A stretch of 42,104 bases of DNA, taken from the NCBI GenBank assembly GCA_947624215.1, contig CANQJJ010000011.1, positions 1 to 42,104 of the forward strand, read 5' to 3'. The position numbers and the translations under genes are program-made. This document shows positions 5,456 through 39,701 of the stretch, piece after piece; position 1 is the first letter of the stretch, and every line of letters starts with the position of its first letter. This stretch comes from an uncultured Clostridia bacterium. GTDB lineage: Bacteria; Bacillota; Clostridia; Christensenellales; Borkfalkiaceae. Below the pieces are notes generated by a model that made no database searches, was not told the DNA's origin, and saw nothing but the letters and a program-made list of their open reading frames with translations.

Positions 5456-6630
5456 AAAAATTTATCATGTTGGCCTTGTTTCTCTGCTGCATCCTGTGCG
5501 CATGGGGGAGTATGGGAAGGACAGTGAACGTCTCGGCGGCCACACAGGAGGAGGCAATGGGAGAGCTTGAGGATACCATTGACGATCTTCTCACCTCCCT
5601 CGATACGGAAGAATTGCAAAACTTTCTCGATACGCTCTCGGATTTCGGAGGGGTGTCCGTCAAGAACAAATTGCGCGACCTCATCACGGGGGACCTCTCC
5701 CTCGATTACGGGGATCTCTTCCATGCCGTCCTATCGCTCGTATGGGAAGAGGGGCAGAAGATGCTCCCCGCCTTTACCGTGATCTTGGCCGTAGCACTGC
5801 TCTGTGGAGTGTTGAATAGCGTCAAAAACAGCTTTTTGCACAGTACTACGTCAGACATAATACATTTTGTTTCCTACATTTCCGTGGGTGCCGTCGTGCT
5901 TGCGAGCCTTATCGGCGTCCTGCAAGCGGGATATGACGCCATATCCTCCATGCAGAGACAGATGGAGCTCGTCTACCCGATCCTGCTCACGCTGATGGCG
6001 GCGAGCGGGGGAGCCGTCTCTGCCGGCATCTTCAGGCCCGCGGTCGCCTTCTTCGGCGGGGCGCTCGCGTCGCTCTTCTCCTCCGTCATTCTACCCTCCG
6101 CGATCATCGTCATCGTGCTCACCTTTGTCTCGCATCTGACGGAAAATCTCCGCGTCGAAAAGCTCGGGGAACTGTTCAAGGGGATCTCCAAATGGCTGCT
6201 CGGGCTGACGCTCGGCATCTTCGGGTTGTTCATTTCCGTGCAGGGCATCGCCGCGGCCCAGTATGACGGGATGTCCCTGCGCGCGGTGAAATATCTGATC
6301 GCGGGTTCCGTGCCCTTCGTGGGGGGATTTCTCTCGGGCGGCGTCGAGCTCGTCGTAGCCGGGAGCGTGCTCATCAAGAACGCCGTGGGGACGTTTGCCA
6401 TCATTCTGCTTGCCGGCACCGTCCTGCGCCCGCTCATCCTGTTCCTCGTCTTCCGCCTTCTCCTGCGCGTCAGTGCGGCCGCGACCGAGCCCGTCGGGGG
6501 GAGCATCTCCTCCTTCCTCTCCTGCCTTGCGCGGGACAGCGGATATTTTCTCGCCGCGCTGCTTTCCATGGCATTCCTCTATTTTCTCACAATTCTTCTG
6601 CTCATTTGTTCCACGGGGGCGATCTTCTGA
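5452..6630 (+). CDS. spoIIIAE: Stage III sporulation protein AE, with repeat-encoded peptide
   Basis: A 392-residue polytopic protein with a signal-like N-terminus (MKKFIMLALFLCCILC), an extracytoplasmic acidic stretch (about 30-100), then about seven or eight hydrophobic segments. The family core IAAAQYDGMSLRAVKYLIAGSVPFVG is present. It starts inside the spoIIIAD stop region (ATGA overlap) and ends in TGATG with spoIIIAF. Residues about 129-139 (LHSTTSDIIHF) are encoded by a copy of a dispersed palindromic element (5843-5863). The same peptide occurs in Dxs, so this piece is probably an acquired insertion or replacement in a loop or helix end. Confidence 0.94.
   Translation: MKKFIMLALFLCCILCAWGSMGRTVNVSAATQEEAMGELEDTIDDLLTSLDTEELQNFLDTLSDFGGVSVKNKLRDLITGDLSLDYGDLFHAVLSLVWEEGQKMLPAFTVILAVALLCGVLNSVKNSFLHSTTSDIIHFVSYISVGAVVLASLIGVLQAGYDAISSMQRQMELVYPILLTLMAASGGAVSAGIFRPAVAFFGGALASLFSSVILPSAIIVIVLTFVSHLTENLRVEKLGELFKGISKWLLGLTLGIFGLFISVQGIAAAQYDGMSLRAVKYLIAGSVPFVGGFLSGGVELVVAGSVLIKNAVGTFAIILLAGTVLRPLILFLVFRLLLRVSAAATEPVGGSISSFLSCLARDSGYFLAALLSMAFLYFLTILLLICSTGAIF
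5843..5863 (+). repeat. Dispersed palindromic element, family A, copy 1 (in spoIIIAE)
   Basis: GTACTACGTC, A, GACATAATAC, preceded by TTTTTGCACA. It is an imperfect 10+1+10 palindrome read in frame as S-T-T-S-D-I-I. It matches copy 2 in dxs at 17 contiguous core positions on the left and centre, and most of the right arm. Confidence 0.85.
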
Positions 6631-7085
6631 TGAAGGCATACATTCTGAGCATCGCGGGCATCATCCTCATTGCCTCCGTCGTCACGGTCATCGCTCCCGG
6701 CGGCAAGATGGGGCAGTTCATCAAGGGTACGACGCGCCTGTTTCTCCTCATCGTCATGATCTCGCCTGTGTTGGGATTGACGAAAAAAGATCTTTCCGAC
6801 GTTCCCTCGGCGCAATATGAGGAGGACGCGGGGTATTATCTCGCCTGCGCGGAACTGCTTGAACGGCGGGACGAGGAGGCGATCTGCGCTCGTATTTCAG
6901 AGAACTACGGGCTTTCGGCACAAGTCGAGGTAAAGCGGAAACAAACGGCAAACTTCGACCCCGAAAAAATCTCCGTGACCCTCGCATTTCAAGGCATAAT
7001 CGGCGAAGATGAGCGTATAAATATCATGACCAACATCCGAGAGGAGCTCTCCGGCGCCTACGGGTGCGACGTGGAGGTCTCGTGA
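6630..7085 (+). CDS. spoIIIAF: Stage III sporulation protein AF
   Basis: A 151-residue protein with two N-terminal membrane segments (about 2-18 and 32-48, the latter LFLLIVMISPVLGL) followed by a soluble domain with the beta-alpha pattern of SpoIIIAF (YGLSAQVEVKRKQTANFDPEKISVTLAF). SpoIIIAF is thought to form rings within the intermembrane part of the channel. The ATG at 6630 overlaps the spoIIIAE stop; an in-frame ATG at 6606 lies within spoIIIAE and is not favoured. The 3' end overlaps the proposed spoIIIAG start. Confidence 0.9.
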   Translation: MKAYILSIAGIILIASVVTVIAPGGKMGQFIKGTTRLFLLIVMISPVLGLTKKDLSDVPSAQYEEDAGYYLACAELLERRDEEAICARISENYGLSAQVEVKRKQTANFDPEKISVTLAFQGIIGEDERINIMTNIREELSGAYGCDVEVS

Positions 7086-7438
7086 GATCCGAATCGCTCA
7101 AACGGTTTTTTGAAAATAAGACCGTGCGCATCATCGCCGTACTGCTCCTTGCGCTCGTCTTGCTCATCGTCGTGTTCCGCGTATTTGCCGTTTCGGACGA
7201 CAGCGGGGGATATGCCCCCACGGAGCGGGAATCACGGCTCATCCGCCTCATCGAGACGCTCGACGAAGTCACCGAGGCAACGGTCATGGTCACGGAAGAG
7301 GAGGGCATGCCTGTAGGCGCAGTCGTAATCTTCCGCGGTGAAGATGGGATCCTCACGCGGATGCACATCCTCGAGATCGCCGCAGGGGCGCTGAATATCC
7401 CCAAACAGGCCGTGCTCGTGTATCCCGCGGAGAGCTGA
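7082..7438 (+). CDS. spoIIIAG: Stage III sporulation protein AG, short form
   Basis: A 118-residue protein with one membrane helix (about 15-35, VRIIAVLLLALVLLIVVF) and a small ring-forming domain (RLIRLIETLDEVTEATVMVTEE, then LEIAAGALNIPKQAVLVYP). SpoIIIAG forms a large ring in the space between mother cell and forespore. Family members are usually 180-230 residues; the linker and beta-triangle region normally inserted in the middle is missing or very short here. I chose the GTG at 7082, which overlaps the spoIIIAF stop (GTGA) and has GGAGG four bases upstream. A GTG at 7064 is the alternative. Confidence 0.82.
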   Translation: MRSESLKRFFENKTVRIIAVLLLALVLLIVVFRVFAVSDDSGGYAPTERESRLIRLIETLDEVTEATVMVTEEEGMPVGAVVIFRGEDGILTRMHILEIAAGALNIPKQAVLVYPAES

Positions 7439-7469
7439 AAAAAGAAATTTTTATTTGAAGGAGATAGCT

Positions 7470-7955: not shown

Positions 7956-7985
7956 GAAAAAACAGTAGTAAAATCTGAAAATATG

Positions 7986-7994
7986 TGCTATAAT
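7986..7994 (+). promoter_or_regulatory. Extended -10 promoter of asp23-like gene
   Basis: TGC followed by TATAAT (7989-7994) forms an extended -10 element. No good -35 box sits 17 bases upstream (TAGTAA at 7966-7971). The expected start of transcription is near 8001, giving a leader of about 27 bases with GGAG before the ATG at 8028. Confidence 0.6.
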
Positions 7995-8027
7995 GATTCC
8001 ATACTACCATCGTATCGGAGTAAAATT

Positions 8028-8417: not shown

Positions 8418-8422
8418 CGCCT

Positions 8423-8445
8423 CCCTTCCCCGCACCGGGGAAGGG
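8423..8445 (+). other. Intergenic hairpin between asp23-like gene and nusB
   Basis: A perfect 9-bp stem CCCTTCCCC/GGGGAAGGG with a 5-base loop. AAAACC follows instead of a T run, so it is not an ordinary terminator. It may separate or stabilise parts of the message. Confidence 0.5.
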
Positions 8446-8472
8446 AAAACCATGACAGTCTGAGGAGATACC

Positions 8473-10564: not shown

Positions 10565-10595
10565 CGGCGGAACGGCGTGTTCGCCGGTTTTATAT

Positions 10596-12299
10596 ATGAT
10601 GAAAAACATCTCCCGGGCACAACTCAAAAATGCCTCCCTTGAACAACTGAATGCGCTGTGCGAGCAACTGCGGGAGGAGATCTTCCGCACCGTTTCGGCT
10701 TGCGGCGGGCATCTCTCGTCCAACCTCGGTGCCGTAGAGCTTACCGTAGCCCTGCACCGCGTCTTTGATTTCCCGCGCGATAAGTTGGTCTTCGACGTCG
10801 GGCATCAGTGCTACGCCCATAAATTGCTCTCCGACAGGGCGGCGCTCTTTCACACTTTGAGGCAGGAGGGGGGGATCTCTGGATTTCCCAAGCGCGGGGA
10901 GAGCGTCTACGATTGCTACGGCGCAGGCCATGCGGGCACTGCCATCTCCGCGGCCCTCGGCATCGCAAAGGCACGGGATCTCAAACAAGAGGATTTTTCC
11001 GTCGTGGCACTCGTCGGCGACGGTTCCTTCCAGAACGGCCTCATCTTCGAAGCCCTCAACAGCCTTGCCGTCCTGAAAACAAACATCCTGATCGTTCTGA
11101 ACGACAACGGTATGTCCATTTCTCCCACGGAAGGAGCCACGCAGGATATCCTCGACGGGCTCAAAACAGGCGAACGCGATGCCCGTCTCTTCGAGCAATT
11201 CGGCCTGACCTACATGGGCGGCGTCAACGGGAACGAGCTCGGCAGTTTGCTCCCCGCCCTCGAAGAGGCAAAAACAAAACTGAAAGCGGGGAGCGTACTC
11301 CTGCACGTCACCACGCGAAAGGGGCTCGGGTATCCGTTCAGTGAAAACGCCCCCACGGAAACGCACGGGTTCAGCCCCAAGCCTGCCCCGCAGAGCAAAT
11401 ATCCCGCGGCACTCGGCGAAGAACTCATCCGCCTCGCCGAAAAAGACAGCCGCGTCGTCGTCGTGACGGCCGCCATGACGGACAGCCTCGGGTTAAGACC
11501 CTTCTTCGAACGCTTTCCCGACAGGGCTTTTGACGTCGGGATCTGCGAGGAGCATGGTTGCGTCCTCGCTGCCGCACTCGCCGCGGAGGGGATGCGCCCA
11601 TACTATGCCATCTATTCCACCTTCCTGCAACGCGCCTTCGATGAAGTCATCCACGACGTCTGCGGACAAAATCTGCCCGTGACGTTCTGCATCGACCATG
11701 CGGGGATCACGGGTCCCGATGGCGAGACGCACCAGGGCGTCTTCGATCTCTCCTATCTCTCCTTCATCCCCAACCTCACGGTGGGGATCCCCAAAGACAT
11801 CGGCGAGATGCGCGCGATGCTCCGCATGGGGGCAAACTATGGCGGCCCGTTCGCCATAAGATACCCGCTTCTCGGTTCAGAGGGGCCCGTTTGCCCTGTC
11901 GAAAGGGGGAAATTCGAAATTTTACATAGTACTACGTCAGACATAATCGTTCTTGCGGCTGGGGAGAGATGCATCAAACTCGCAGAGGAAGCCGCAGAGA
12001 TCCTGCGGGGAGAGGCGGAGTTTACGCTCGTCAATGCACGCTTTTTGAAGCCGCTCGACGCCGAGCTCCTTGCCTCGCGCGCGGAGAAGTATGTCGTGAC
12101 CATCGAGGACAACGTCGTCACGGGAGGACTGGGGGATGCCGTCGCGCGCTTCTACCGGGACAGCGGAAAATTCGTGAAATGCTTCGGCTATGCCGACGCC
12201 TTCATCCCGCACGGAGAAGCGGGATCGCTCGCCGCCAAATACGGATTGGACCGCGACGAAATCGTGTCCTGCCTGAGGGAACTTCATGCGCGCGGATAA
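10596..12299 (+). CDS. dxs: 1-deoxy-D-xylulose-5-phosphate synthase, short form with repeat-encoded peptide
   Basis: A 567-residue thiamine-diphosphate enzyme that condenses pyruvate and glyceraldehyde 3-phosphate, the first step of the MEP pathway. Signatures: HLSSNLGAVELTVALH, FDVGHQCYAHKLL, SGFPKRGES, GDGSFQNGLIFEALN (141-155), the catalytic Glu region ICEEHGCVLAAALA (316-329) and DGETHQGVFDLSYL (375-388). Usual length is about 620-640, so this is a compact form. Residues 442-451 (ILHSTTSDII) are encoded by a dispersed palindrome (11929-11949) at the strand where Dxs normally has a short polar turn. ATG at 10596 or 10599; no strong Shine-Dalgarno site. It overlaps tlyA by 14 bases. Confidence 0.93.
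   Translation: MMKNISRAQLKNASLEQLNALCEQLREEIFRTVSACGGHLSSNLGAVELTVALHRVFDFPRDKLVFDVGHQCYAHKLLSDRAALFHTLRQEGGISGFPKRGESVYDCYGAGHAGTAISAALGIAKARDLKQEDFSVVALVGDGSFQNGLIFEALNSLAVLKTNILIVLNDNGMSISPTEGATQDILDGLKTGERDARLFEQFGLTYMGGVNGNELGSLLPALEEAKTKLKAGSVLLHVTTRKGLGYPFSENAPTETHGFSPKPAPQSKYPAALGEELIRLAEKDSRVVVVTAAMTDSLGLRPFFERFPDRAFDVGICEEHGCVLAAALAAEGMRPYYAIYSTFLQRAFDEVIHDVCGQNLPVTFCIDHAGITGPDGETHQGVFDLSYLSFIPNLTVGIPKDIGEMRAMLRMGANYGGPFAIRYPLLGSEGPVCPVERGKFEILHSTTSDIIVLAAGERCIKLAEEAAEILRGEAEFTLVNARFLKPLDAELLASRAEKYVVTIEDNVVTGGLGDAVARFYRDSGKFVKCFGYADAFIPHGEAGSLAAKYGLDRDEIVSCLRELHARG
11929..11949 (+). repeat. Dispersed palindromic element, family A, copy 2 (in dxs)
   Basis: GTACTACGTC, A, GACATAATCG, preceded by GAAATTTTACATA. 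It is read in the same frame as copy 1 and gives the same peptide HSTTSDII. The upstream GAAATTTT is shared with copy 3. Confidence 0.85.
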
Positions 12300-17171: not shown

Positions 17172-17768
17172 ATGGACCTTTCGTTTTTTTCGGGCTGTCT
17201 CGAACGCATCCGCGAGCACAAGCGCATGTTACTTCTCTTCGGCATTTTATATCTGCTCGGCATTGTTCTCGGTTTTCTCTTTATCACCACCCCGACGGCA
17301 TATGAGTATCATCTCACGCTGTGTGAACGGTATCTGGACCGCGTCTGCTTTTCCGACCGCAACGTCTTCGTCATCTTTCTGGAACGCTCGGCGGGAAGAA
17401 CGCTTCTGCTCGTCCTCATTTTGCTGTCGGGGGTCCACCTCGCCGCGCTCTTCGTGCCGTCCGCCGTGCTTCTCTACCGCGCCTACACATTCGGGGGGAG
17501 CATCGTCATCCTCTTTTCCGTTTATCGCGTAACGGGCGTGCTCGTCGTCTTCGTCCTGTATCTGCCCGTTCACCTGCTCATCGACGCCGTCCTCATCTGC
17601 GCGACGGCGCTCTCCTGCGTCCGCGCACCGCATTTTTGCTTTTGCAAGAAGGACTTCACGGGCATCGGGGGCGATCTCATTGCGCTGTCCATCTTTATCC
17701 TCCTCGTTTGCCTTATTGAAATGCTCCTGCTTCTCGCCGTATTTCACCCGATCGGCACACTGCTTTGA
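17172..17768 (+). CDS. SpoIIM-like membrane protein
   Basis: A 198-residue protein with a short cytoplasmic start (MDLSFFSGCLERIREHKR) and about five hydrophobic segments: 19-38, about 78-98, 102-125, 128-148 and a C-terminal one (LIALSIFILLVCLIEMLLLLAVF). The size and pattern, with LLFGILYLLGIVLGFLF near the start and a central Gly/Pro turn, resemble stage II sporulation protein M, part of the SpoIID-M-P engulfment complex. It lies directly upstream of dacF; in many Clostridia spoIIM is close to dacF. No diagnostic motif proves the call. The Shine-Dalgarno site is weak (TAAGG far upstream). Confidence 0.5.
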   Translation: MDLSFFSGCLERIREHKRMLLLFGILYLLGIVLGFLFITTPTAYEYHLTLCERYLDRVCFSDRNVFVIFLERSAGRTLLLVLILLSGVHLAALFVPSAVLLYRAYTFGGSIVILFSVYRVTGVLVVFVLYLPVHLLIDAVLICATALSCVRAPHFCFCKKDFTGIGGDLIALSIFILLVCLIEMLLLLAVFHPIGTLL

Positions 17769-17794
17769 TATTTTTTTGCAGAGTGCGCAAACTA
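17765..17794 (+). promoter_or_regulatory. Candidate forespore promoter of dacF
   Basis: TTGATA (17765-17770), 17-base spacer, CAAACTA (17788-17794). The -10 box is like the one before spoIVB (CAAAATA); the -35 box is weaker. The ATG follows after five bases. Confidence 0.35.
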
Positions 17795-17799
17795 TCGGT

Positions 17800-18951
17800 A
17801 TGAAAAAATTATTGATCGGTGCAACAGCCGCGTTGCTTGCGGCATCGCTCGTTTTTCCCGCATGCGGCATTGTCCGTGCGTCCGCCGAAGAGACGGCCGG
17901 GAAGGCGGCATATCTATGCGAATACGAAAGCGGGACGGTCGTCAGCCAAAGAGAGGAAACCAAACATCTGCCCATTGCCAGCATGTGCAAGATCATGACC
18001 TTGCTTCTGTCCTTTGAAGCGGTCGAAAGCGGGGGGCTCTCCTACGAAGAGGAGATCACCGTGAGCCAAAATGCGGCGGGAATGGGGGGCTCGCAGGTCT
18101 TTCTCGCGGCAGGGCTTTCCTACCGGGCGGAGGAGCTCATGAAGACGGTGGCCGTCTGCTCCGCAAACGATTCCTGTGTGGCGCTCGCAGAGAGGATCGC
18201 GGGAAGCGAAGAGGACTTCGTGGCCAAAATGAATGCGCGTGCCCGCGAACTCGGCGCCGAGGACACTCTCTTCGCAAATTGCACGGGGCTTCCCAAGGAG
18301 CCGCAATATTCCTGCGCGAAAGATGTCGCCCTCATGCTGAGAGCGCTCCTCGGACATCGGAAATATTTCGAATTCGCCAAGGTCTGGTATGAAGATTTTG
18401 TCCATCCCGACGGGAGGACGACCCGCATCACCAATACCAACAAGCTCATCCGCAGCTACACGGGGTGCGACGGCGGCAAGACAGGCTTTACGAATGAAGC
18501 GGGATTTTGCCTCGCTGCGACAGCCAAGAGGGGAGAGACGCGCCTCATCTCCGTCATCATCGGTGCAGACAGCTCCGCCTCCCGTTTCGATGCGACAAAG
18601 GAGATGCTCGATGGGTGCTTTCAGAGCTATGAAACGCGCGTGCTCATCCCCGAGGGCGAAGAGCTTTCCGAAAGAGTTCCCGTGCGCGGGAGCATAGAGG
18701 GGGAGATCGGCGTTGCGGCAGAGCGTTCGCTGAAAGAATTCGTAAGGCGCGGCGAAGAGGAAAAGGCATCCGTCTCCATAGAACTTTGCAAGGACCTCAG
18801 AGCGCCCGTCCCCGCGGGGACCGTCGCCGGGTGTGCCACGGCATACCGAAACGGAGTGGAGATCGGCAAAGTAGATCTCATCACCGTGCATGATGCGGAC
18901 AAAATGGGCTGGTGGGACGCCCTCCGCGAGACCGCGCGAAAGTGGCAATGA
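17800..18951 (+). CDS. dacF: D-alanyl-D-alanine carboxypeptidase, DacF type
   Basis: A 383-residue penicillin-binding protein that trims the terminal D-Ala of peptidoglycan stem peptides. A signal peptide (about 1-29, ending in ASA) precedes the S11 peptidase domain: S61-x-x-K64 in IASMCKIMT, S121-A-N123 in VCSANDSC, and KTG at 227-229 in GGKTGFT. A C-terminal beta domain (about 265-350) ends in an amphipathic tail (WWDALRETARKW) that should hold it on the membrane. The SAND variant and the spo neighbours suggest the forespore DacF that controls cortex cross-linking. The ATG at 17800 has no Shine-Dalgarno site. Confidence 0.87.
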   Translation: MKKLLIGATAALLAASLVFPACGIVRASAEETAGKAAYLCEYESGTVVSQREETKHLPIASMCKIMTLLLSFEAVESGGLSYEEEITVSQNAAGMGGSQVFLAAGLSYRAEELMKTVAVCSANDSCVALAERIAGSEEDFVAKMNARARELGAEDTLFANCTGLPKEPQYSCAKDVALMLRALLGHRKYFEFAKVWYEDFVHPDGRTTRITNTNKLIRSYTGCDGGKTGFTNEAGFCLAATAKRGETRLISVIIGADSSASRFDATKEMLDGCFQSYETRVLIPEGEELSERVPVRGSIEGEIGVAAERSLKEFVRRGEEEKASVSIELCKDLRAPVPAGTVAGCATAYRNGVEIGKVDLITVHDADKMGWWDALRETARKWQ

Positions 18952-18964
18952 GAAATTTTGCGAT

Positions 18965-18985
18965 GTACTATGTGTGACATAATAT
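18965..18985 (+). repeat. Dispersed palindromic element, family A, copy 3 (after dacF)
   Basis: GTACTATGTG, T, GACATAATAT, preceded by GAAATTTTGCGAT. It lies 13 bases after the dacF stop. The left flank GAAATTTTGCG matches copy 2 and the TGCGA of copies 6 and 7. A T-rich stretch follows, so it may also help end transcription. Confidence 0.8.
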
Positions 18986-19089
18986 TCATTTTTCCCGAAA
19001 AATTCAGGCCATCGCGTAAAAAGCTCACGGTTTGAACGATCGCGGAAAGAAAAGATGTCAAAAAGAGGAGTTTATTCCTTTGACGAAGC

Positions 19090-19123
19090 AATCGGATTTT
19101 TTTCAAAATATCCGATTTTTTCT
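19090..19123 (+). terminator. Terminator upstream of the M50 protease gene
   Basis: An 8-bp stem AATCGGAT/ATCCGATT (19090-19097, 19110-19117) with a 12-base T/A-rich loop is followed by a T run. The T run leads directly into the -35 box of the next promoter. It would end read-through from dacF. Confidence 0.7.
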
Positions 19124-19151
19124 TGCTTTTTTTTCCCATATGTTGTATAAT
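19123..19151 (+). promoter_or_regulatory. Sigma-A promoter of the M50-scpA-scpB operon, abutting the start codon
   Basis: TTGCTT (19123-19128), 17-base spacer, TATAAT (19146-19151). The ATG at 19161 is nine bases further on, so the leader is about 2-4 bases at most. Confidence 0.72.
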
Positions 19152-19160
19152 TGTACTTGT

Positions 19161-19853
19161 ATGGCAAATTACCTCATCGGCCTTCTCGCAAGTTTCTTCG
19201 CGGTGGCCATCGTGTTGACCCTGCATGAGTTCTCCCATGCCGCTGTGGCCTATCGTTGCGGGGATCTCACGCCGAAGTTCTACGGCAGGCTCACGCTAAA
19301 TCCGCTGAGGCACTTCGATCTCGTAGGCCTGCTCTGCTTCACGCTCGTCGGCTTCGGTTGGGCCAAGCCCGTTCCCATCAATCCCGGGAATTTCAGGCGG
19401 TATCGGATGGGGCTCTTTCTGACCGCGATCGCGGGCATCGTGATGAACCTGATCACGGCGGCGCTCATCTTCTATCCGCTCTATCTCGTTGTCGTCTACT
19501 ATCTTCCGCGCGTGATCTTCGTCTATGACGTTCTGACGGAATTTACTTATCGGCTGTTTGCTTACAGCCTGAGCTTTGCGGTCTTCAACCTTCTGCCGTT
19601 CTATCCGCTCGACGGGTTCCGCATCGTGGACGCACTGAACAAAAAAAGAGGGCCCGTCTACCGCTTCCTCCGCAACTACGGACAGTGGATCCTGCTCGGG
19701 CTCATCGCGGAAAGTTTTCTCTGCAACATGCTCGTCAGAGGAACAGGACTCTATTTTATTTCCAACTTTGACGTTCTCGGCTGGGTCATGCAGTTTGCGA
19801 CAGGCATTCTCGGCTGGCCCATCACAACACTTTGGGGGTTGATCCCGTGGTAA
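19161..19853 (+). CDS. Site-2 protease family (M50) membrane metalloprotease
   Basis: A 230-residue polytopic protein with the zinc motif HEFSH (22-26) in the first helix and NLLPFYPLDGFRI (142-154) carrying the third ligand Asp150. This is the compact M50B class often called YwhC-like or Rip-like. No PDZ domain is present. It has six hydrophobic segments. This class commonly sits upstream of scpA-scpB in Clostridia. The substrate is unknown. The ATG at 19161 follows its -10 box by nine bases and has no Shine-Dalgarno site. The stop overlaps scpA (TAATG). Confidence 0.9.
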   Translation: MANYLIGLLASFFAVAIVLTLHEFSHAAVAYRCGDLTPKFYGRLTLNPLRHFDLVGLLCFTLVGFGWAKPVPINPGNFRRYRMGLFLTAIAGIVMNLITAALIFYPLYLVVVYYLPRVIFVYDVLTEFTYRLFAYSLSFAVFNLLPFYPLDGFRIVDALNKKRGPVYRFLRNYGQWILLGLIAESFLCNMLVRGTGLYFISNFDVLGWVMQFATGILGWPITTLWGLIPW

Positions 19854-23593: not shown

Positions 23594-23613
23594 CAGAAAC
23601 GAAGGAGTGCAGA

Positions 23614-23634
23614 GTACTCTGCGTGACATGATAT
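23614..23634 (+). repeat. Dispersed palindromic element, family A, copy 4 (at rluB start)
   Basis: GTACTCTGCG, T, GACATGATAT, preceded by AGTGCAGA. The rluB ATG at 23633 lies on its right end. A local perfect palindrome GCAGAGTACTCTGC (23609-23622) overlaps it. The element separates AAGGAG (23602-23607) from the start codon. Confidence 0.7.
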
Positions 23635-24346
23635 GCGCATCAACAAGTTTTTAGCCGAGCAGGGGATCGCTTCGCGGCGCGGGGCGGATGAGATCGTTGC
23701 CGAGGGCAGGATCACCGTAAACGGCAAGCCCGCAACGCCCGGGATGGACATCGGAGAGAACGATACCGTCATGCTCGACGGAAAGATCCTCTCCCACAAG
23801 GTCAAATACGAATACTATATCCTCAACAAACCCAAGGGCTGCGTGTGCACTGTCTCGGACGAAAAGACAGAGCGCCCGAGAAAAACGGTCATGGATCTCT
23901 TGCCCCCGGGTGCAGGGAAAGTGTTTCCCGTCGGAAGGTTAGACTACAACACCGAGGGGCTGCTCATTCTCACCAACGACGGGGAACTCGCATTCCGCCT
24001 CACGGCGCCCCGCAACGAGATCCCGAAGACGTACGTCGTGCGCGTAGAGGGCCCGATCACGCCCGTCCAGCTCAACCGTGTCAGGGCAGGCGTCGAGATC
24101 GAAAAGGGGGTCGTGACAAAGAAGTGCAAAGTGAACGTCATTGAGACGGACAAGGCATATACAAAGATGACCGTCGTGCTCACGGAGGGGAAGAACCGTG
24201 AGATCAGGAAGATGTTTGAAGCCGTCGGAAAGCATGTGGACTTTCTGAAACGCACCAAGCTGGGCGACCTCACGCTGACGGGGCTCGACCGCGGCGCATG
24301 CAGAAAGCTCACCCCCGAAGAAGTGTTTTATCTCAAAAATCTGTAA
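23633..24346 (+). CDS. rluB: RsuA/RluB family 23S rRNA pseudouridine synthase
   Basis: A 237-residue enzyme with an N-terminal S4 domain (about 1-50, RINKFLAEQGIASRRGADEIVAEGRITVNG) and a pseudouridine synthase domain with the catalytic Asp104 in GRLDYNTEGLLILTNDGEL. The final ILTEGKNREIRKMFEAVG-like segment (VVLTEGKNREIRKMF) is typical. By analogy with B. subtilis RluB, which lies in the same cluster, it probably modifies 23S rRNA. The upstream in-frame codon TGA at 23624 fixes the start at 23633. The nearest Shine-Dalgarno sequence is 25 bases away, beyond repeat copy 4. Confidence 0.93.
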   Translation: MRINKFLAEQGIASRRGADEIVAEGRITVNGKPATPGMDIGENDTVMLDGKILSHKVKYEYYILNKPKGCVCTVSDEKTERPRKTVMDLLPPGAGKVFPVGRLDYNTEGLLILTNDGELAFRLTAPRNEIPKTYVVRVEGPITPVQLNRVRAGVEIEKGVVTKKCKVNVIETDKAYTKMTVVLTEGKNREIRKMFEAVGKHVDFLKRTKLGDLTLTGLDRGACRKLTPEEVFYLKNL

Positions 24347-25363: not shown

Positions 25364-25400
25364 AAAAGAGTTGCCGTTTAAGCTGTCGGCAACTTTTTCT
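25364..25400. terminator. Bidirectional terminator between cysteine-rich gene and membrane protein
   Basis: Stem AGTTGCCG (25369-25376) and CGGCAACT (25387-25394), with A run on the left and TTTTTCTTTT on the right. The stop codon of the minus-strand membrane gene lies in the loop. Confidence 0.78.
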
Positions 25401-26271
25401 TTTCCACCAGAGCACAGATAAAGGAATCGGCGTTGGCGTCCGCAATGTTCAAGGTATAAATGAGAAGAGGGACCATCATCAGAATGGCGAGGATGGGGGA
25501 GAGGAGAAAGAGCAGGGCTACCGCAACGCCGTCGATGAGCAGCAAGATGAGCGATGATGCGAGGTGCCCGAGCACATTTTTCGACGTCACGACTTCTTGA
25601 TAAGTGAGCTTGTCGTCGCGGTGGATGATCCACGCATTGATCAGGGAGGCGCCGCTCAAAATCAGCAGAACGACAAAGATAAGTAGAAGGCCGTATAGCT
25701 TGGTGACGGCAAGCAAGCCGAATGCGACCGTCAAGAAGACAGACTGCACGAGCGGAACGACCGTGTGGGCGATGATAAACTTCTTGATGCCGCCCTTGAC
25801 GATGTTTTTTCTTACGGCAAACCGCGTCGCATAGTTGGCGCACACGATCCCGAGCCCGAGTACGGTGACGGCGACCGCAATGATCGCCCCGACCGAATCC
25901 TTAAATTCCGTGACAACGGCAAGCACCTGTTCTTCAAAGCCCTCCGTCGACGCGCTGAGCGTCTCAAAAAATCCCTTCACGGTCGTCTGCAACCAGCCCG
26001 TGCTCAGGATCTGCCGCGCTACGTCGAGAAGGCTGCCGTTCCAATTGAGCTGTTCGAGAGAGTATGCGAGAAATTGGTTGACGGATGCAGACGACGTTTC
26101 GGAGGAGAGATGGATGAGTTCCGCGAGTTCCGTGATCATGCGTTGCAGGCTCTCGACCGTCGCAGAAAAGAGCCCGAAGATGGCAAAAATGATGAACATA
26201 TAGAAAATGCCCATCGGAATAAAGAGAAGAACGAGATTCTTCGCAAAGTTTTTCAGGGAGTTTTTTATCAT
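25378..26271 (-). CDS. Multi-pass membrane protein of unknown function
   Basis: A 297-residue protein not recognised as a named family. The N-terminus is short and Lys-rich, then a hydrophobic segment (NLVLLFIPMGIFYMFIIFAIFGLF). An amphipathic region with Ser/Thr/Glu follows (about 45-125), which should be outside the cytoplasm or at the membrane. At least four more hydrophobic segments come after (AIIAVAVTVLGLGIVCANYA, VPLVQSVFLTVAFGLLAV, LLIFVVLLILSGASLI, SLILLLIDGVAVALLFLLSPILAILMMVPLLIYTL). Its ATG follows the hflX stop directly (TAAATG) with AAGGAG inside the hflX end, so it is cotranslated with hflX. Confidence 0.75.
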   Translation of the reverse strand: MIKNSLKNFAKNLVLLFIPMGIFYMFIIFAIFGLFSATVESLQRMITELAELIHLSSETSSASVNQFLAYSLEQLNWNGSLLDVARQILSTGWLQTTVKGFFETLSASTEGFEEQVLAVVTEFKDSVGAIIAVAVTVLGLGIVCANYATRFAVRKNIVKGGIKKFIIAHTVVPLVQSVFLTVAFGLLAVTKLYGLLLIFVVLLILSGASLINAWIIHRDDKLTYQEVVTSKNVLGHLASSLILLLIDGVAVALLFLLSPILAILMMVPLLIYTLNIADANADSFICALVEKKKLPTA

Positions 26272-27546
26272 TTATTTCTCCTTTTTGAAGTACGGACGAA
26301 ATTTTTCTGCATAGATCGCGGGGACGATCGCCTCCACCGAGATACCGTCGTCGGTATACTGCACGTCTTGCTCGGTCAAAAGAGAGCGCAGGGCAGAATA
26401 TACGGCTGTCTGCGCATAGGGGAAAAAGAGCTTTACGCGCAGAAAATCATCCTTCACCGCGTCGAAAATACGCCTTTTGAGCTCGTCCAGCCCCATGCCC
26501 GTCTTCGCGGAGATGCGGACGCAGTCTTTGGGCAGGTGCACATCCCCCGCAATATCGCATTTGTTCATCACCACGAGATAGGGGGCGTCAAAGCCGAGTT
26601 CTTTCAGCGTGTCGAGCGTGGTCTGAAGCTGGACTTCGTAAGCCCCCGCCGCATCGCATACGATGAGCGCCAGATCGCAGGAGAGGGCACTTTCGAGGGT
26701 AGAGCGGAAGGCCTCGATGAGCGATGTGGGAAGCTCCTGCAAAAAGCCGACGGTATCCACCATCAAAAAGGGCACCATGTCGATCTCAAAGGCCCGCGCG
26801 GTGGGGTCGAGTGTGGCGAAAAGGGCATCTTGGACAAATACATCGGCGCCTGTCATGGCATTGAGGAGCGTGGATTTTCCCGTGTTGGTATATCCGACAA
26901 GCGCTACGGTCTTGACGCGCTGTTTTTTCCTGCGGCTCGTGAGCAATGCACGGCGCTGTTCCGTCTCCTTGAGCTTCTCTTCAAGGGCATGGATACGGGC
27001 GCGGATGTGCCTGCGGTCTGTTTCAAGCTGGCTTTCCCCGGGACCGCGCGTCCCGATCCCGCCTCCGAGACGGGAGAGCGCACCGCCCTTGCCTTTGAGA
27101 CGCGGATAGAGATATTTGTACTGCGCGAGCTCGACTTGCAGTTTCCCCTCGCTGCTCGCGGCACGCAGGGCAAAGATGTCGAGAATGAGCGTTGTGCGGT
27201 CGATGACCTTCTTCCCGCCGAGCGCCTTGGAAATATTCAGCGTCTGGGAGGGGGAGAGATCGCCGTTGAAGAGCACCGTGAGCTCCAACCCTTCGAGCCG
27301 CGCATTCAGCTCGCGCAATTTTCCTTCGCCGATGTAGGTCGCGGGGTCGATCTTGCGGATGGTTTGGTAGATCGTACCAGCATACCGTGCCCCCGCGCTT
27401 CCGATGAGCGCCACCGCTTCCTCGTGCAACACTTTTGATTGCGACCCAAAAATGGGTTGTATGATATAGACGCGTTCGCCTTGAAAGCCGTCTTCATCCG
27501 AAAGGGGCGCGCTTTCCGCCTGCATAAGGGTATCGTAAGAGTTCAT
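26272..27546 (-). CDS. hflX: Ribosome-associated GTPase HflX
   Basis: A 424-residue GTPase that, in other bacteria, splits stalled or hibernating ribosomes. The N-terminal HflX domain has GTIYQTIRKIDPATYIGEGKLREL and the linker IGTRGPGESQLE (164-175) followed by a coiled coil. The G domain has G1 GYTNTGKSTLLN (218-229; usually GYTNAGKS), G3 DTVGF and G4 NKCD. Residues 30-36 (QPIFGSQ) are encoded by a family B palindrome (27441-27460). The ATG at 27546 overlaps the recombinase stop by four bases. Confidence 0.93.
   Translation of the reverse strand: MNSYDTLMQAESAPLSDEDGFQGERVYIIQPIFGSQSKVLHEEAVALIGSAGARYAGTIYQTIRKIDPATYIGEGKLRELNARLEGLELTVLFNGDLSPSQTLNISKALGGKKVIDRTTLILDIFALRAASSEGKLQVELAQYKYLYPRLKGKGGALSRLGGGIGTRGPGESQLETDRRHIRARIHALEEKLKETEQRRALLTSRRKKQRVKTVALVGYTNTGKSTLLNAMTGADVFVQDALFATLDPTARAFEIDMVPFLMVDTVGFLQELPTSLIEAFRSTLESALSCDLALIVCDAAGAYEVQLQTTLDTLKELGFDAPYLVVMNKCDIAGDVHLPKDCVRISAKTGMGLDELKRRIFDAVKDDFLRVKLFFPYAQTAVYSALRSLLTEQDVQYTDDGISVEAIVPAIYAEKFRPYFKKEK
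27441..27460. repeat. Short palindrome, family B, copy 2 (in hflX)
   Basis: GCGACCC, loop AAAAAT, GGGTTGT, within the 5' part of hflX. It has the same arms as copy 1. Confidence 0.6.
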
Positions 27547-28610
27547 TCGTCCTCCCCGCAGTGCAATTTAACGCGTCCCGCGACCTTCTTCCGGTTGTCC
27601 TCCGTGATCGCGGCATAGTGCTTTCGGGTCGTGTTGACGTCGCGATGCCCGAGCACGTCGGCCACGATATAGATGTCGCCCGTCTCGCGGTACAGCGCGG
27701 TGCCATACGTCGAGCGCAGTTTATGCGGCGTGATATGTTTGAGCGGGGTGACGAGGGAGGCGTATTTTTTGACGAGATTTTCCACGGCGCGCACCGTAAT
27801 GCGCCGGTATTGGAGGGAGAGAAAGAGGGCAGTTTCCCCGCGCGGGATCTTGGGATCGCTCTTTTTTTGTTCCATATAGGCTACCAGCGCGTCCGCCACT
27901 TCCTCTGAAAAATACAGAATGGCCTTGTTGCCGCCCTTGCGCGTGACGATAAAGGAATTGTTGGCGAAATCAATGCTCTCGTTGTTGAGCCCGACGAGCT
28001 CGGAGACGCGGATGCCCGTGCCGAGAAGAAGGGTCAGGATGGCACAATCGCGCACCTTCGTGCGTTCATGGTATCCCTCCATGTGGCGGGAGATCCCGTT
28101 GCCGAGTTCGGCGGTGTCGAGCAGGTCGGTGACTTCATCCCGTTCGAGGCGGATGATCTCTTTCTCGTGCAATTTCGGCGTCGCGACCTTGGCCGTATTG
28201 TTGACGGAGATGAGCCCTTTGTTGAAGAAATATTTGAACAACGACCGCACGGTGGAGAGCTTGCGGGCCTTTGCCCGTTCATCGCACGAGAGCATTTTTC
28301 CCGCATACTCATAGCGGGAGAGATAGGAAAGGAAAATTTCGATGTCGGTATCCGTGACCGCGTCGAGGTGTTCCAAGGTAAAGTCGTGCACATCGTTCAC
28401 CTTGCCGCGGAACTTCTTTTTCATGAGAAAATCAAAGAAGATCCTGAGGTCATAGGCATAATTGAGCCGCGTCAGCGTACTCGTACGCGGTTCAACGCCG
28501 CGGAAAAAGTCCTCGCAGAAGTAGGGGAGATCGTCGAGAAGCTCGGAAATTTTATCCAAATTGCGGTTGTTCCGCTCCTGATAGTAATCGTCGCTGCGTT
28601 TCTTTTCCAT
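27543..28610 (-). CDS. Tyrosine recombinase, XerC/XerD-like
   Basis: A 355-residue tyrosine recombinase. All catalytic residues are visible: Arg201 (GTGIRVSEL), Lys225 (RKGGNK), His296 and Arg299 (HKLRSTYG), His322 (LGHRD) and Tyr332 (RKHYA). The N-terminal SAM-like domain (about 40-130) has an extra 35-residue N-terminal part, so the protein is longer than typical XerC/D (about 300). It is cotranscribed with hflX and close to lexA, a clostridial arrangement. It could resolve chromosome dimers or be a house-keeping paralogue; no integrated element is seen around it. The ATG follows the -10 box by six bases with no Shine-Dalgarno site. Confidence 0.9.
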   Translation of the reverse strand: MEKKRSDDYYQERNNRNLDKISELLDDLPYFCEDFFRGVEPRTSTLTRLNYAYDLRIFFDFLMKKKFRGKVNDVHDFTLEHLDAVTDTDIEIFLSYLSRYEYAGKMLSCDERAKARKLSTVRSLFKYFFNKGLISVNNTAKVATPKLHEKEIIRLERDEVTDLLDTAELGNGISRHMEGYHERTKVRDCAILTLLLGTGIRVSELVGLNNESIDFANNSFIVTRKGGNKAILYFSEEVADALVAYMEQKKSDPKIPRGETALFLSLQYRRITVRAVENLVKKYASLVTPLKHITPHKLRSTYGTALYRETGDIYIVADVLGHRDVNTTRKHYAAITEDNRKKVAGRVKLHCGEDE

Positions 28611-28645: not shown

Positions 28646-28674
28646 TTTTACGAAGAGTTGAGAGGGGAGTTTTC

Positions 28675-28944
28675 TCAAAATTTATCCCGCCGCATGTGCG
28701 AATCATGGGCGGCGATGGAGGGATCGGGCGACTCGGCATCCGAAACGATCCCGAGAAGTTCGTCTGCGGAGATCCGATAATAACGGCAGAGGATGACGAT
28801 CTCCGACGCACACGGCTCAGACTGCCCGAGTTCCCAGCGGGCAAGGGAAGATTGGCTGATCCCCGTGAGCTTGGAAAGCGTCATCTGGGAAATACAGCCA
28901 TTGGTGATGCGAAGGTCATGCAATTTTTTTGCGAGCGGTTTCAT
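28675..28944 (-). CDS. XRE family helix-turn-helix regulator
   Basis: An 89-residue protein with a Cro/C1-type HTH at about 4-60: LAKKLHDLRITNGCISQMTLSKLTGISQSSLARWELGQSEP, then ILCRYYRISADELLGI. The C-terminal 25 residues are polar and end in DSHMRRDKF. The ATG at 28944 has GGAGGTGGCG upstream; an earlier in-frame ATG at 28977 has none. It is a stand-alone gene between two operons. The target is unknown, perhaps its own region. Variants of this kind are often chromosomal regulators rather than phage repressors; nothing phage-like is nearby. Confidence 0.82.
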   Translation of the reverse strand: MKPLAKKLHDLRITNGCISQMTLSKLTGISQSSLARWELGQSEPCASEIVILCRYYRISADELLGIVSDAESPDPSIAAHDSHMRRDKF

Positions 28945-29022
28945 CGCCACCTCCATAAACTCGCGCGTTCCGAACAAAGCCGACGCGGCGTCCGTACGGA
29001 AACCTTTTCACGTTTGTTTGCT

Positions 29023-29154: not shown

Positions 29155-29188
29155 AACTATTCGCAAAATCACGCTTTTACGAATAGTT
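29155..29188. repeat. 34-base imperfect inverted repeat
   Basis: AACTATTCG (29155-29163) and CGAATAGTT (29180-29188) are perfect complements. After one mismatch AAAA/TTTT pair further inwards, leaving a 6-base centre. No T run follows on either strand. Confidence 0.65.
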
Positions 29189-29420: not shown

Positions 29421-29441
29421 GAACTATGTCTGGCATACTAT
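29421..29441 (+). repeat. Dispersed palindromic element, family A, copy 5 (end of amylase gene)
   Basis: GAACTATGTC, T, GGCATACTAT, preceded by AATAAGC. The TAG stop of the minus-strand amylase (29438-29440) lies inside it. Outer arms AGAAATA (29411-29417) and TATTTCT (29439-29445) extend the dyad. Confidence 0.65.
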
Positions 29442-31261
29442 TTCTTTCCGAGGACGAGAAATGAATCGGGGGACAGTTCGCAATCCTTGGAGACGGGCTC
29501 TCCCGTGAAGGCGTTTATAAAGCCAGCCTCCGAAAAATGCATCAGATAGCGCGCGGTGGAACGGTTGCAGCAGACGATGACGCGCTCGTCCTTCTTTTTG
29601 CGTTCATAGATGAGACAGCCGGAGTCCGCATAGATCTCGCGGTATCCGCCGTCCGCAAAGACTTCGGGATACAACTCCGTGCGGATCTTTCCCAAATCCT
29701 CATAAAACGCATGAAGCGACGCGTCAATGTTGTCCCAGGGAAAACACCCGCGGCAGAAGGGATCCTGATAGCCCTCAACACCCGCCTCGTCGCCATAGTA
29801 GATGCAGGGCACGCCGAAGAGCGTAAACTGCAAGACGGCGGCCATCCGCACAAGTTTGAGCGCCCGCGTCCGCTCTTCGTCCGATAGAAACGTACGGGAC
29901 ATTTCCTCCTTGTCCGCAGGGTGGCGGTTGCCGAAGACGGTCAGGATGCGCGGCGTGTCGTGCGTGCCGAGGATATTCATGAGAACGTCAAGCGTTTGCT
30001 TGGGGTAATTGTCGCGCAACATGGCGATCGTTTCCCGCAATTGTACGGTGTTGCCCGAGAGCACGAAGTTGATGATCGCGTTCTTCAAGGGATAATTCAT
30101 CACCGAATCGAGCTCACCGCCCTGCAAATATTCCCGCCTGACGTCATAGGAGATCTTGTTGGAAGCGTCCTCCCAAACTTCGCCGATGATGAGCGCCTCC
30201 GGATCCTGCTCCTTGACGGATGCGCGCAACTTTTTCAAGAAAAAATCCGGGAGTTCATCGGCCACGTCGAGCCGATAGCCGGACGCGCCGCGCCGTAACC
30301 ATGTCCGAAGAACACCGTCCTTCCCGAAGATAAAATTCTGATAGGAAGGCGAACTTTCGTTGACGGCGGGAAGCGTTTCGATCCCCCACCAGCTCTCGTA
30401 TGTGTCGGGATAGCTACGGAAATGGTACCAATCGGCATACGGAGACGACAGGGATTGATAGGCTCCAACGCTATCGTAGCGCCCAAATTTGTTGAAATAA
30501 CGGCTGTCGTCGCCCGTATGGTTGAAGACGCCGTCCAAAACCACGCGGATGCCGAGCGACGCCGCCTCCGAAATGAGCGCAGCAAAGTCCTCGTCCGTCC
30601 CCAAGAGCGCGTCGATCTTCATGTAATCGCCCGTATCATAGCGATGGTTAGAATAGGCGTCAAAGATGGGATTGAGATAGATCGTCTTGACGTGCAATGC
30701 GGAGAGATACCCGAGTTTTGCGCGGATCCCATTGAGATTTCCGCCAAAAAAATCGTTGTTGAGCACCTTGCCGAAATCGTTCGGACGGAAATACGGCTGG
30801 CCGCCCCAATCCTCACGCAAGATCTTATACGGTTTCACGGGATACTCCCCGACCTTATAGAAACGGTCGGGGAAAATTTGGTACATGATACCGCCTTTGA
30901 ACCAATCGGGGGTGTGGAAACCCTGCTCGAAGACGGTTATCTGCCAGCAGGCGGGATGTTGCGTTTGCTCGGCCTGTCTGAGAAAACCGCGTCCGAGAAA
31001 TCTGTCCTGTCCGAGCGAGAAGTAGTAGAAATACAGCCCGACACGGCGGAATCGCACGCAGGCACGGAAACATCCGTCCTCGCGTTTCATCGGGAAACTG
31101 AATTTCGTCCCGTCGTCACGGAAGAACTCCAACGTGCAGGTGAGCTCACTCCCCTCTTCATTTTGATCAAAGTATGTCTGAAATAGTACCTCGCACCCGC
31201 GCTCAATTGCGCCTTCTACCGACTTACACCGCGGGTCGAGCGGATCGTAGTAAAAGCGCAT
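29438..31261 (-). CDS. GH13 alpha-amylase family glycosidase (cyclomaltodextrinase/neopullulanase-like)
   Basis: A 607-residue predicted cytoplasmic enzyme (no signal peptide) acting on alpha-1,4 (possibly alpha-1,6) glucans, likely glycogen-derived maltodextrins. An N-terminal beta domain (about 1-115) precedes the barrel: MYQIFPDRF, region I DGVFNHTG, region II GYRLDVADE with nucleophile Asp332, region III GEVWED with Glu361, region IV LGTHDTPR. Region IV has THDT where NHD is usual. Residues 22-32 (GCEVLFQTYFD) are encoded by family A copy 6, and the gene ends within copy 5. It follows glgP after three bases and is last in the operon. Confidence 0.9.
   Translation of the reverse strand: MRFYYDPLDPRCKSVEGAIERGCEVLFQTYFDQNEEGSELTCTLEFFRDDGTKFSFPMKREDGCFRACVRFRRVGLYFYYFSLGQDRFLGRGFLRQAEQTQHPACWQITVFEQGFHTPDWFKGGIMYQIFPDRFYKVGEYPVKPYKILREDWGGQPYFRPNDFGKVLNNDFFGGNLNGIRAKLGYLSALHVKTIYLNPIFDAYSNHRYDTGDYMKIDALLGTDEDFAALISEAASLGIRVVLDGVFNHTGDDSRYFNKFGRYDSVGAYQSLSSPYADWYHFRSYPDTYESWWGIETLPAVNESSPSYQNFIFGKDGVLRTWLRRGASGYRLDVADELPDFFLKKLRASVKEQDPEALIIGEVWEDASNKISYDVRREYLQGGELDSVMNYPLKNAIINFVLSGNTVQLRETIAMLRDNYPKQTLDVLMNILGTHDTPRILTVFGNRHPADKEEMSRTFLSDEERTRALKLVRMAAVLQFTLFGVPCIYYGDEAGVEGYQDPFCRGCFPWDNIDASLHAFYEDLGKIRTELYPEVFADGGYREIYADSGCLIYERKKKDERVIVCCNRSTARYLMHFSEAGFINAFTGEPVSKDCELSPDSFLVLGKK
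31169..31189 (-). repeat. Dispersed palindromic element, family A, copy 6 (in amylase)
   Basis: On the minus strand: GTACTATTTC, A, GACATACTTT, preceded by GGGTGCGAG. It is read in frame as V-L-F-Q-T-Y-F. TAC replaces the TAA that the core would put in this frame. Confidence 0.75.
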
Positions 31262-33753: not shown

Positions 33754-33764
33754 GAATGACTTTT

Positions 33765-35309: not shown

Positions 35310-35393
35310 ATTTTCCCCCTTATTTACACCTTTGATTTTTTATTTGACTTCATACGGCGCCTTGCCCTGGAAGACAAAGCGCCGCAGCCGTTC

Positions 35394-36518: not shown

Positions 36519-36522
36519 GATT

Positions 36523-37719: not shown

Positions 37720-37748
37720 TTTTTCATTACCCCCTTGAAGGTTTTCCC

Positions 37749-39701
37749 TTAGTTTTTTACCGGCTTTTGCGCCGTCTGTTCCCTGTGCTTTACGGGCGCA
37801 TCTGGTTCACGGACGAGATAAATCGTCGTGAACTTCGGCACGTCGATGCGGAGCGAATACTGTTTCCCGTGGCTGGGCTTCTTCACCGTCGTCAGCGTCT
37901 TGCGCTTCAACTTCCCTTCGCCGCCGTATTTTTTATCGTCCGTGCAGAAAATTATCTTGTATTTTCCCTTTTGATTGACCCCCATGAGGTAGTCAACGGC
38001 GTCCGTACCCGAGAAACATGACAGACATAGTACTTCGCACCCGTGCTTATCACGGCGGATAAAGGAGACGATATTGCGGTCTGCATCGTCAGCGGCCAGC
38101 CATTCGAAGCCTGCCCACGAGTCTTCGACTTCATAGAATGCGGGCGTATTTTTGTAGAACTCATTGAGCTCGCGCACGAGAACGGACAATTTTCCATGCA
38201 GTTCATAGTTGTCCCGCAGGAAAAATTCCAGCCCTTCGTGGTAATCCCACTCCTTGAACTGCCCGAATTCGTACCCCATAAAGTTCAGCTTCTTGCCGGG
38301 ATGCGCCATCATATAGCCGAGGAAGGTGCGTACGCCCGCGAATTTGTCCTCATAGCTCCCGGGCATTTTGTTGATGAGCGAGCACTTGCCATGCACCACT
38401 TCGTCGTGCGAGATCGGAAGCACATAGTTTTCCGAAAATGCATACATCATGGAGAAGGTGAGCTTGTTGTGGCTCCCCATGCGGAAGAAAGGATTGAGGG
38501 AAAGATAGGAAAGCATATCGTTCATCCATCCCATATTCCATTTGAAATTGAAGCCGAGTCCCCCCACGCTCGCGGGCTTTGTGACGAGCCCCCACGCGGT
38601 CGATTCCTCTGCGATCATCAGTGCATGCGGGAAACGCTTGAACACGGCCTCATTGAGCCTCCGCAGGAAGGCGATCGCCTCGAGGTTCTTGTTTTCGCCG
38701 TAGATATTCGGCACCCATTCACCGGGGCGTTTATCGTAGTCAAGGTAGAGCATGGAGGCAACGGCGTCCACGCGCAACCCGTCCACATGGAATTTATCGA
38801 AGAAAAAGCAAGCGCTCGAGATCAGGAAGGAGACGACCTCGTCCCTGCCGTAATCAAAGCGGCGTGTCCCCCAGCTCTTGTGCTCCATTCTGTCCCATTG
38901 GCTACTCTCATAGAGGGGCTGTCCGTCAAACTCATACAGCCCGTGGGCATCCTTGGGGAAATGCGCGGGGACCCAATCGACGATGACGCCGATCCCCGCC
39001 TTGTGGAAGCAATCGATGAGATACATGAGGTCTTTCGGCGTTCCGAGGCGGGAGGTCGCCGCAAAATACCCCGTCACCTGATAGCCCCACGACCCGTCGT
39101 AGGGATACTCCGTCACGGGCATGAACTCGACATGGGTGTATCCCATCTCTTTTACATACCCGACGAGCTCCGCCGCAAGATCGCGATAGGAGAGATAATT
39201 CCCGTCCGCATGCCTTTTCCACGAGAGAAGATTGACCTCGTAGATGTTCATGGGCGAGGTGAAGATATTCCTATGATAGATGCCGTTCAGATAGGCTTCG
39301 TCCCCCCACCGATACCCTTCGAGATCATAGAGTTTGGAGGCCGTCTCGGGCGGCGTCTCGGTATGAAATCCGACGGGATCCGCCTTTAAGACCGTCTTCC
39401 CGTCCTGCGTGCGGATCGCATACTTATAGATATCATACTCTTTCAGACCGGGGATGAAGAGCTCGAAGCTCTCGTTGTCCACCATGCGTTGCATGATGTT
39501 GCGGGAGGCATCCCAGCCGTTGAAATCTCCGACGACGGAGACGCCGGCGGCATGAGGCGCCCAAACGCGGAACATATACCCCTCCTGTCCGTCTGCACAC
39601 ATCTTGTGTGCGCCGAAGATCTCATAGATGCGATCGTTGTTCCCGTGATGATAAAGATGAAGCGGAAAATCCGTCTCCCGGTCCCCCACGCGTTGCTCCA
39701 T
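37749..39701 (-). CDS. glgB: 1,4-alpha-glucan branching enzyme (GH13)
   Basis: A 650-residue enzyme that moves short alpha-1,4 chains to alpha-1,6 positions. The CBM48 N-domain ([22 protein letters not shown]) is followed by the barrel: DWVPAHFP (242-249), [16 protein letters not shown] with nucleophile Asp312, AEEST with Glu365 and [11 protein letters not shown] (429-439). The C-terminal beta domain contains [11 protein letters not shown] (554-564), encoded by family A copy 7 where the family usually has a strand like EVLVVCNF. The tail is Lys-rich. The ATG at 39701 has AAAGGAGGG upstream. First gene of the glg operon. Confidence 0.97.
38013..38033 (-). repeat. Dispersed palindromic element, family A, copy 7 (in glgB)
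   Basis: On the minus strand: GTACTATGTC, T, GTCATGTTTC, preceded by GGGTGCGAA. It is read in the same frame as copy 6, as V-L-C-L-S-C-F. TGT replaces the TAA of the core. Confidence 0.75.

Follow-up and report, generated by a model that had tools for sequence, protein, structure and literature searches.

Polar palindromic sites around the replication terminus of uncultured Clostridia and their probable link to a putatively membrane-anchored PadR-family protein

Background

A 30 bp palindromic sequence occurs seven times in contig CANQJJ010000011.1 of an uncultured Clostridia bacterium (Christensenellales, Borkfalkiaceae; GenBank assembly GCA_947624215.1). The contig was analysed whole, as one stretch of 42,104 nucleotides that is called the window here. 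We infer that the genus of the genomes bearing the sequence is Candidatus Gallimonas. By computation, the sites cluster around the replication terminus on mapped contigs, are polar about a dif-like site, and have flanks phased with the turn of the DNA helix. The same analysis finds a site upstream of a PadR-family gene, gives the domain layout of its product, links the gene to a dif-like site in other families and, in one orthologue test, finds a site conserved. The palindromes are probably polar terminus sites of this PadR protein, a candidate membrane-anchored protein and their most likely binder.

A first-pass annotation had noticed the seven copies without recognising the element. It offered three readings: a mobile mini-element tolerated in genes, an uptake sequence, or the binding site of a dimeric chromosome-organising protein. 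Which of these do the genomes of the order favour? And, if a protein is bound, what might it do at the terminus?

Results and Discussion

Structure of the site and its flanks

Each site is 30 bp long and consists of two overlapping palindromes. Unsupervised orientation of 217 sites gives the consensus TTTTGCATAGTACTATGTCWGACATAATAC, within which the even palindrome CATAGTACTATG overlaps the odd palindrome TATGTCWGACATA. An independent count of dyads on a mapped contig of a second genus member (G007:C1) recovers both palindromes (11 versus 0.002 and 9 versus 0.003 expected). The palindrome described in the first-pass annotation is corrected here to a 21 bp odd palindrome with a 9 bp extension on one side. 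The dyad lies on a base, and for this reason a recombinase or gyrase cleavage site was set aside by reasoning.

A/T bands recur every ~10.4 bp on both sides of the site and reach about 90 bp (223 sites). Their amplitude is 0.069, and 500 shifted sets give at most 0.0087. It is alike in open reading frames (ORFs; 0.072, 113 sites) and in intergenic DNA (0.067, 110 sites), and the sequences of the flanks differ among sites while the phasing is common to them. Such flanks are what bending or wrapping around a complex would produce. The set of 223 leaves out sites that share a 61 bp core, sites less than 150 bp from a locus end and, as copies of other sources, loci L001-L006, L028 and L137.

Here and below, published descriptions are cited from excerpts of the papers. 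The E. coli DNA gyrase motif also has flanking arms with a helical GC periodicity, of 10.75 bp, which has been read as wrapping (PMC6379681). It differs from the Gallimonas site, which is a conserved 21 bp odd palindrome with phasing to about 90 bp and terminus clustering. Sites also recur as doublets 19-23 bp apart, or two helical turns. One cluster, at L412:1936-2032, contains four sites 23, 23 and 30 bp apart.

Copies in the window and their distribution among genomes

All seven copies are present where the first-pass annotation had placed them (Table 1). As it had said, they lie at gene borders and in unrelated genes, which we name as spoIIIAE, dxs, an alpha-amylase gene and glgB. Its strand for the copy at 29421 has to be changed from plus to minus, on a weak reading, so that the series runs + + + + - - -. 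The spacing of about 5-7 kb that it reported holds for five of the six gaps in the window (4.6-7.0 kb); even spacing is not general, gaps elsewhere ranging from ~20 bp to more than 50 kb.

With up to 3 mismatches, the 21-mer of that annotation matches the window at 5843, 11929 and 18965 only, 0.01 being expected in shuffled sequence. The copies were scored with a weight matrix trained on 168 sites taken from other genomes. Over ~808 kb it returns 46 scores above 4 bits; when this sequence is reversed, 2 scores exceed 4 bits and none exceeds 6. Another 306 kb, also read backwards, contain two scores above 7, one of them 10.1. The site at 23614 (9.0 bits) is at about the level of this best background match and is therefore not proven by score alone; its acceptance rests also on orientation and place.

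The genome-wide count that the first-pass annotation had called for gives 17 forward and 15 reverse matches in the host genome (up to 3 mismatches; control 0). At the same stringency matches are present in all 25 genus genomes searched, with 5 to 27 in each, and in 1 of 16 genomes of other families; a backward-pattern control matches in 2 of 41 genomes (G018, G033). Across the order, 45 of 396 genomes are positive at up to 1 mismatch, including members of the own family and of f32, f19 and f18. Among the matches listed in a wider search, most are from Clostridia metagenome-assembled genomes (MAGs), the genus names being mainly Candidatus Gallimonas, with single matches in one Staphylococcus and one Lachnospiraceae MAG. 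The strict motif had 0 matches in viral contigs.

The low number of matches per genome, and their clustering and polarity, leave the uptake sequence unsupported. The mobile mini-element fares no better. A palindromic element inserted in genes, like the Rickettsia palindromic elements, would account for a repeated palindrome in coding DNA, and one copy, that in spoIIIAE, was tested. It recurs at homologous codons in all four other genus members retrieved (4/4; 24.0 to 31.0 bits). The four orthologues from g145, the nearest other genus found, are 47-50% identical, score -13 to -30, and are all gap-free over 35 residues, so that this copy involves no length insertion. Of 25 orthologues from other genera, 21 are gap-free there and 4 gapped, and none has the site. 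Together with flanks that differ in sequence yet have a common phasing, and with sites that are clustered and polar, this makes a mobile element highly improbable. The third proposal, that a dimeric chromosome-organising protein binds the sites, agrees with the data, with binding as its inferred part.

Location around the terminus

Where in the chromosome are the sites? On G007:C1 the cumulative skew peaks and the coding strand flips near 118-120 kb; the sites span 11 to 301 kb, with none from there to the end at 388 kb. On the mapped contig of a third member, G356:C1 (306 kb), the skew peaks near 221 kb and sites are found between 89 and 299 kb. Pattern matches in the genome of the window are confined to 6 of its 87 contigs, or 15.5% of bases. 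No sites are present in the first 60 kb each of its contigs C3, C4 and C5, nor in dnaA-containing stretches of five genomes (296.6 kb).

The dif-like site in the window was found by comparing intergenic DNA. It is conserved in G007 and G356, where it likewise adjoins the recombinase gene. Of the genus genomes searched, 22 of 25 contain it, G008 in two copies, as do 9 of 16 genomes of other families; a backward control matches in 1 of 41 genomes (G036). Nothing closer than 9 mismatches to the canonical Firmicutes dif consensus was found in the seven contig stretches scanned. The layout of the dif-like site is that of XerS/difSL of streptococci and lactococci: one Xer gene, with a product of 355 aa, adjoins an intergenic inverted repeat that has a 6 nt centre and lies at the skew peak. 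Published descriptions of difSL and difH give this arrangement of one recombinase gene and a neighbouring repeat at the skew peak (PMC2731167). The recombinase in the window scores 195.1 bits, below the XerS cut-off of 267, and the likeness of the repeat to difSL is one of layout. Recombinase and repeat are apparently an undescribed single-recombinase dimer-resolution module in this order. Between them, at 28660-28970, is a small ORF region that reads like a helix-turn-helix protein.

Polarity of the sites

In the window all four sites to the left of the dif-like site are plus and all three to its right are minus. Over the window, G007:C1 and G356:C1 together, the left arm has 18 plus and 2 minus sites and the right arm 6 plus and 23 minus (p = 1.6e-6). 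On both arms it is the odd palindrome, the better conserved of the two, that faces dif. Orientation also follows local skew over the 223 sites (contingency table 74, 27; 26, 96).

Strand composition could in principle generate such a pattern. The outer GTAC is its own reverse complement and carries no strand composition, so that polarity measured by it is composition-proof. Orientation by GTAC alone follows both skew (38, 19; 9, 52; p = 7e-9) and coding bias (36, 7; 10, 39; p = 1e-9), and the effect persists without G000 and G007 (28, 16; 7, 39; p = 3e-6). This makes composition an unlikely source of the polarity.

A PadR-family protein as candidate binder

The candidate proteins are 430-1000 aa long. 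A PadR winged-helix domain, over the Pfam cut-off, is combined in them with a probable coiled coil and, at the C terminus, four predicted membrane helices. In 391 Clostridia genomes no example of this long form was seen outside the order. We examined 90 PadR loci, the 30 best matches and 60 chosen by hand from the same search list. A motif above 9 bits lies upstream of the PadR gene at 47 of the 90 loci across the order, and at 0 of 90 when the same stretches are read backwards. The count is 14/14 for loci of the genus, 11/11 for g18 and g21, 2/3 for g20 and 0/1 for g19; by family it is 4/4 in f18, 11/14 in f32, 5/8 in f19 and 0/35 in f3, f6, f24, f16, f10, f14, f29 and f8. Two genomes, G145 of f18 and G383 of the own family, have a single match at up to 1 mismatch, and it precedes the PadR gene. 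No consistent promoter palindrome of the PadR gene was found in the families without the motif.

A second link is with a dif-like site, which lies 166-1101 bp before the PadR domain at 15 of the 90 loci (reversed control 0), chiefly in families without the motif: f6 7/10, f16 3/3, f8 1/1, g19 1/1, f19 2/8 and f32 1/14. In one f6 genome, G318, the skew peak and the PadR gene are within about 10 kb. In six further genomes, the flanks of the gene at 25-33 kb are opposed in coding bias in five and in skew in four.

The site contains ATGT and ACAT with a 3 nt spacer. PadR regulators, such as LmrR and B. cereus PadR, have an ATGT/ACAT inverted repeat in the operator and share with the candidate the PadR domain, the fold and probable autoregulation. 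Their operator spacer is 8-10 nt (PMC3506622), against 3 here, and they differ from a candidate of 430-1000 aa with coiled coil and membrane helices, whose sites are chromosome-regional. Might the sites then be the ordinary regulon of a membrane-bound PadR transcription factor? The site before the protein's own gene, the 110 of 223 sites in intergenic DNA and the tandem clusters there suit a regulon. The other 113 sites are inside ORFs, in unrelated genes, and neither terminus clustering nor polarity by replichore is expected of it; we regard a regulon as improbable.

An ORF at 25378-26271 (297 aa, between lexA and hflX) was the first candidate for the binder. It matches no Pfam or NCBIfam model at the limits used, the lexA-hflX gap in G007 is only about 350 bp, and it was dropped.

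Observations that weigh against the interpretation

Several observations do not sit easily with polar terminus sites bound by the PadR protein. Families f3, f6, f24 and f16 have the protein without the motif, and among repeated dyads in 400 kb around one f6 terminus none was strong, with one weak (TTATTA, 5 versus 0.06). The PadR gene is off the replichore boundary in one of the six genomes tested, and in Gallimonas it does not adjoin dif (0/14 loci), being 124 kb away in G007 and 67 kb in G356. Matches on contigs of unknown map position amount to 11 of 34 in G007 and 3 of 17 in G356. Some sites on unplaced contigs form tandem clusters in intergenic DNA; at L413:1961-2049 three sites 20 and 48 bp apart lie upstream of a likely dGTPase-primase operon (names assigned by eye).

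The polarity has exceptions (8 of 49 sites), and orientation by core only agrees with orientation by core plus flank in only 61% of sites. Sites in host genes that oppose the local strand bias gave no significant effect (n = 15, p = 0.6). In the window, flanks are clearly phased at 5843 only, at most weakly at 18965 and 23614, and not at the other four sites.

Proposed mechanism

We propose that a dimeric PadR winged-helix protein would bind the palindromes and, through one site, act on its own promoter. Two dimers may sit side by side on one site, on CATAGTACTATG and the overlapping TATGTCWGACATA, and a site occupied in this way would therefore be directional. Around many sites the DNA would be phased to bend towards the complex. 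The predicted membrane helices point, by analogy, to a tether: the anchored protein may fasten the terminus region to the membrane, probably close to the division site, and dif would be within reach of the Xer recombinase. From the polarity we suggest a directional action of the complexes as well, in the simplest case as fork barriers.

Do the complexes form a strict replication fork trap, stopping forks that overrun the terminus like RTP/Ter of Bacillus subtilis, with the membrane part secondary? There, as in the Gallimonas array with its exceptions, two opposed groups of sites lie about the terminus, and the sites are of ~30 bp with two imperfect inverted repeats (PMC13220808). RTP is a winged-helix protein whose fold and dimer are closely similar to those of PadR by published comparison (PMC3506622), and rtp maps in the terminus region (PMC13220808, PMC3506622). 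Opposed groups around dif, a bipartite site of two overlapping palindromes and the published likeness in fold and dimer form speak for a fork trap. RTP arrests forks arriving from the side of the B site (PMC13220808). With the odd palindrome facing dif on both arms, forks would, by analogy with this rule, be admitted and then held.

Against this, RTP (PF02334) is over the cut-off in 0 of 41 genomes, with one sub-threshold match in another family; two of five PadR proteins match it at E 0.01 and 0.17, below the cut-off. The best 50 matches in a structure comparison are all PadR chains, RTP not being among them, which excludes nothing. The Gallimonas array further differs in its tens of sites, against nine in Bacillus, in its phased flanks and in its site sequence, and its polarity is not strict. 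The candidate has a coiled coil and predicted membrane helices; a membrane anchor is not known from Tus or RTP. A strict trap is possible, though we hold it at less than an even chance.

Or, do the complexes link a terminus macrodomain to the divisome without directional action, as MatP-matS does with ZapB-ZapA, the polarity being a by-product? In enterics and vibrios, too, many palindromic sites surround the terminus, with a possible division-site link, and MatP sites cover 800 kb around it (PMC7188993). Tens of sites around the terminus, and a coiled coil and membrane helices suited to a septum link, agree with this. matS is a 13-mer (PMC7188993), against 30 bp polar sites, a PadR fold and own membrane helices here. 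ZapT of Caulobacter is similar by description: it binds the terminus and has been proposed to connect it with the division machinery; membrane helices or such a site array are not in the excerpted description (PMC7188993). A purely symmetric role needs no polarity, and the polarity survives the composition-proof test, which leaves a non-directional link a somewhat doubtful possibility.

More tentatively still, and rather unlikely as a whole, both activities may be joined in one membrane-anchored polar system. The PadR protein, with its RTP-like fold, would hold the terminus at the division membrane via directional wrapped sites around dif and would also stop forks from leaving, so that termination, anchoring and dimer resolution would form one module across the order.

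Table 1. Coordinates of the sites and associated features (in the window unless another contig is given)
Feature	Position	Strand	Context and remarks
Terminus site 1	5834..5863, core 5843-5863	+	inside spoIIIAE; 32.3 bits, phased flanks; orientation score +23.8; conserved in 4/4 other genus members examined
Terminus site 2	11920..11949, core 11929-11949	+	inside dxs; 20.0 bits, unphased flanks; orientation score +27.4
Terminus site 3	18956..18985, core 18965-18985	+	between ORFs 17680-18951 and 19032-19853; 30.0 bits; orientation score +18.2
Terminus site 4	23605..23634, core 23614-23634	+	weakest; overlaps start of pseudouridine synthase gene (23633-24346); 9.0 bits; orientation score +15.3
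Terminus site 5	29421..29450, core 29421-29441	-	at end of alpha-amylase gene (29438-31261); 21.1 bits, unphased flanks; orientation score -5.4, weak
Terminus site 6	31169..31198, core 31169-31189	-	inside alpha-amylase gene; 17.6 bits, unphased flanks; orientation score -7.5
Terminus site 7	38013..38042, core 38013-38033	-	inside glgB; 12.6 bits, unphased flanks; orientation score -8.4
dif-like site	29155..29188		34 bp inverted repeat, 14 bp arms, 6 bp centre; site polarity flips there
Single tyrosine recombinase gene	27543..28610	-	355 aa; nearest NCBIfam model XerS
PadR-family gene in the window's genome	G000:C1:67378-69738	-	outside the window

A separate repeat was seen on G007:C1 (loci L152-L171), where a GC-rich, hairpin-like dyad, CCCCTCC-N3-GGAGGGG, has about 30 copies (29 versus 0.003 expected).

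Conclusions

A search of the literature on PadR with terminus, fork trap or membrane, and on MatP-like systems, the Gallimonas terminus and XerS, covered titles and the starts of abstracts in an open-licence library; no such system is described there, which is no proof of absence. According to a review, fork traps are confined to a small group of bacteria (PMC13220808), and MatP and ZapB are said to be restricted to enterics, apart from MatP in vibrios (PMC7188993). The present analysis adds, from an order of largely uncultured Clostridia, one candidate protein, whose gene adjoins a dif-like site in several families, together with a 30 bp site of clear polarity. Where A/T phasing of nearly 200 bp falls within genes, it would amount to selection for DNA shape on protein-coding sequence.

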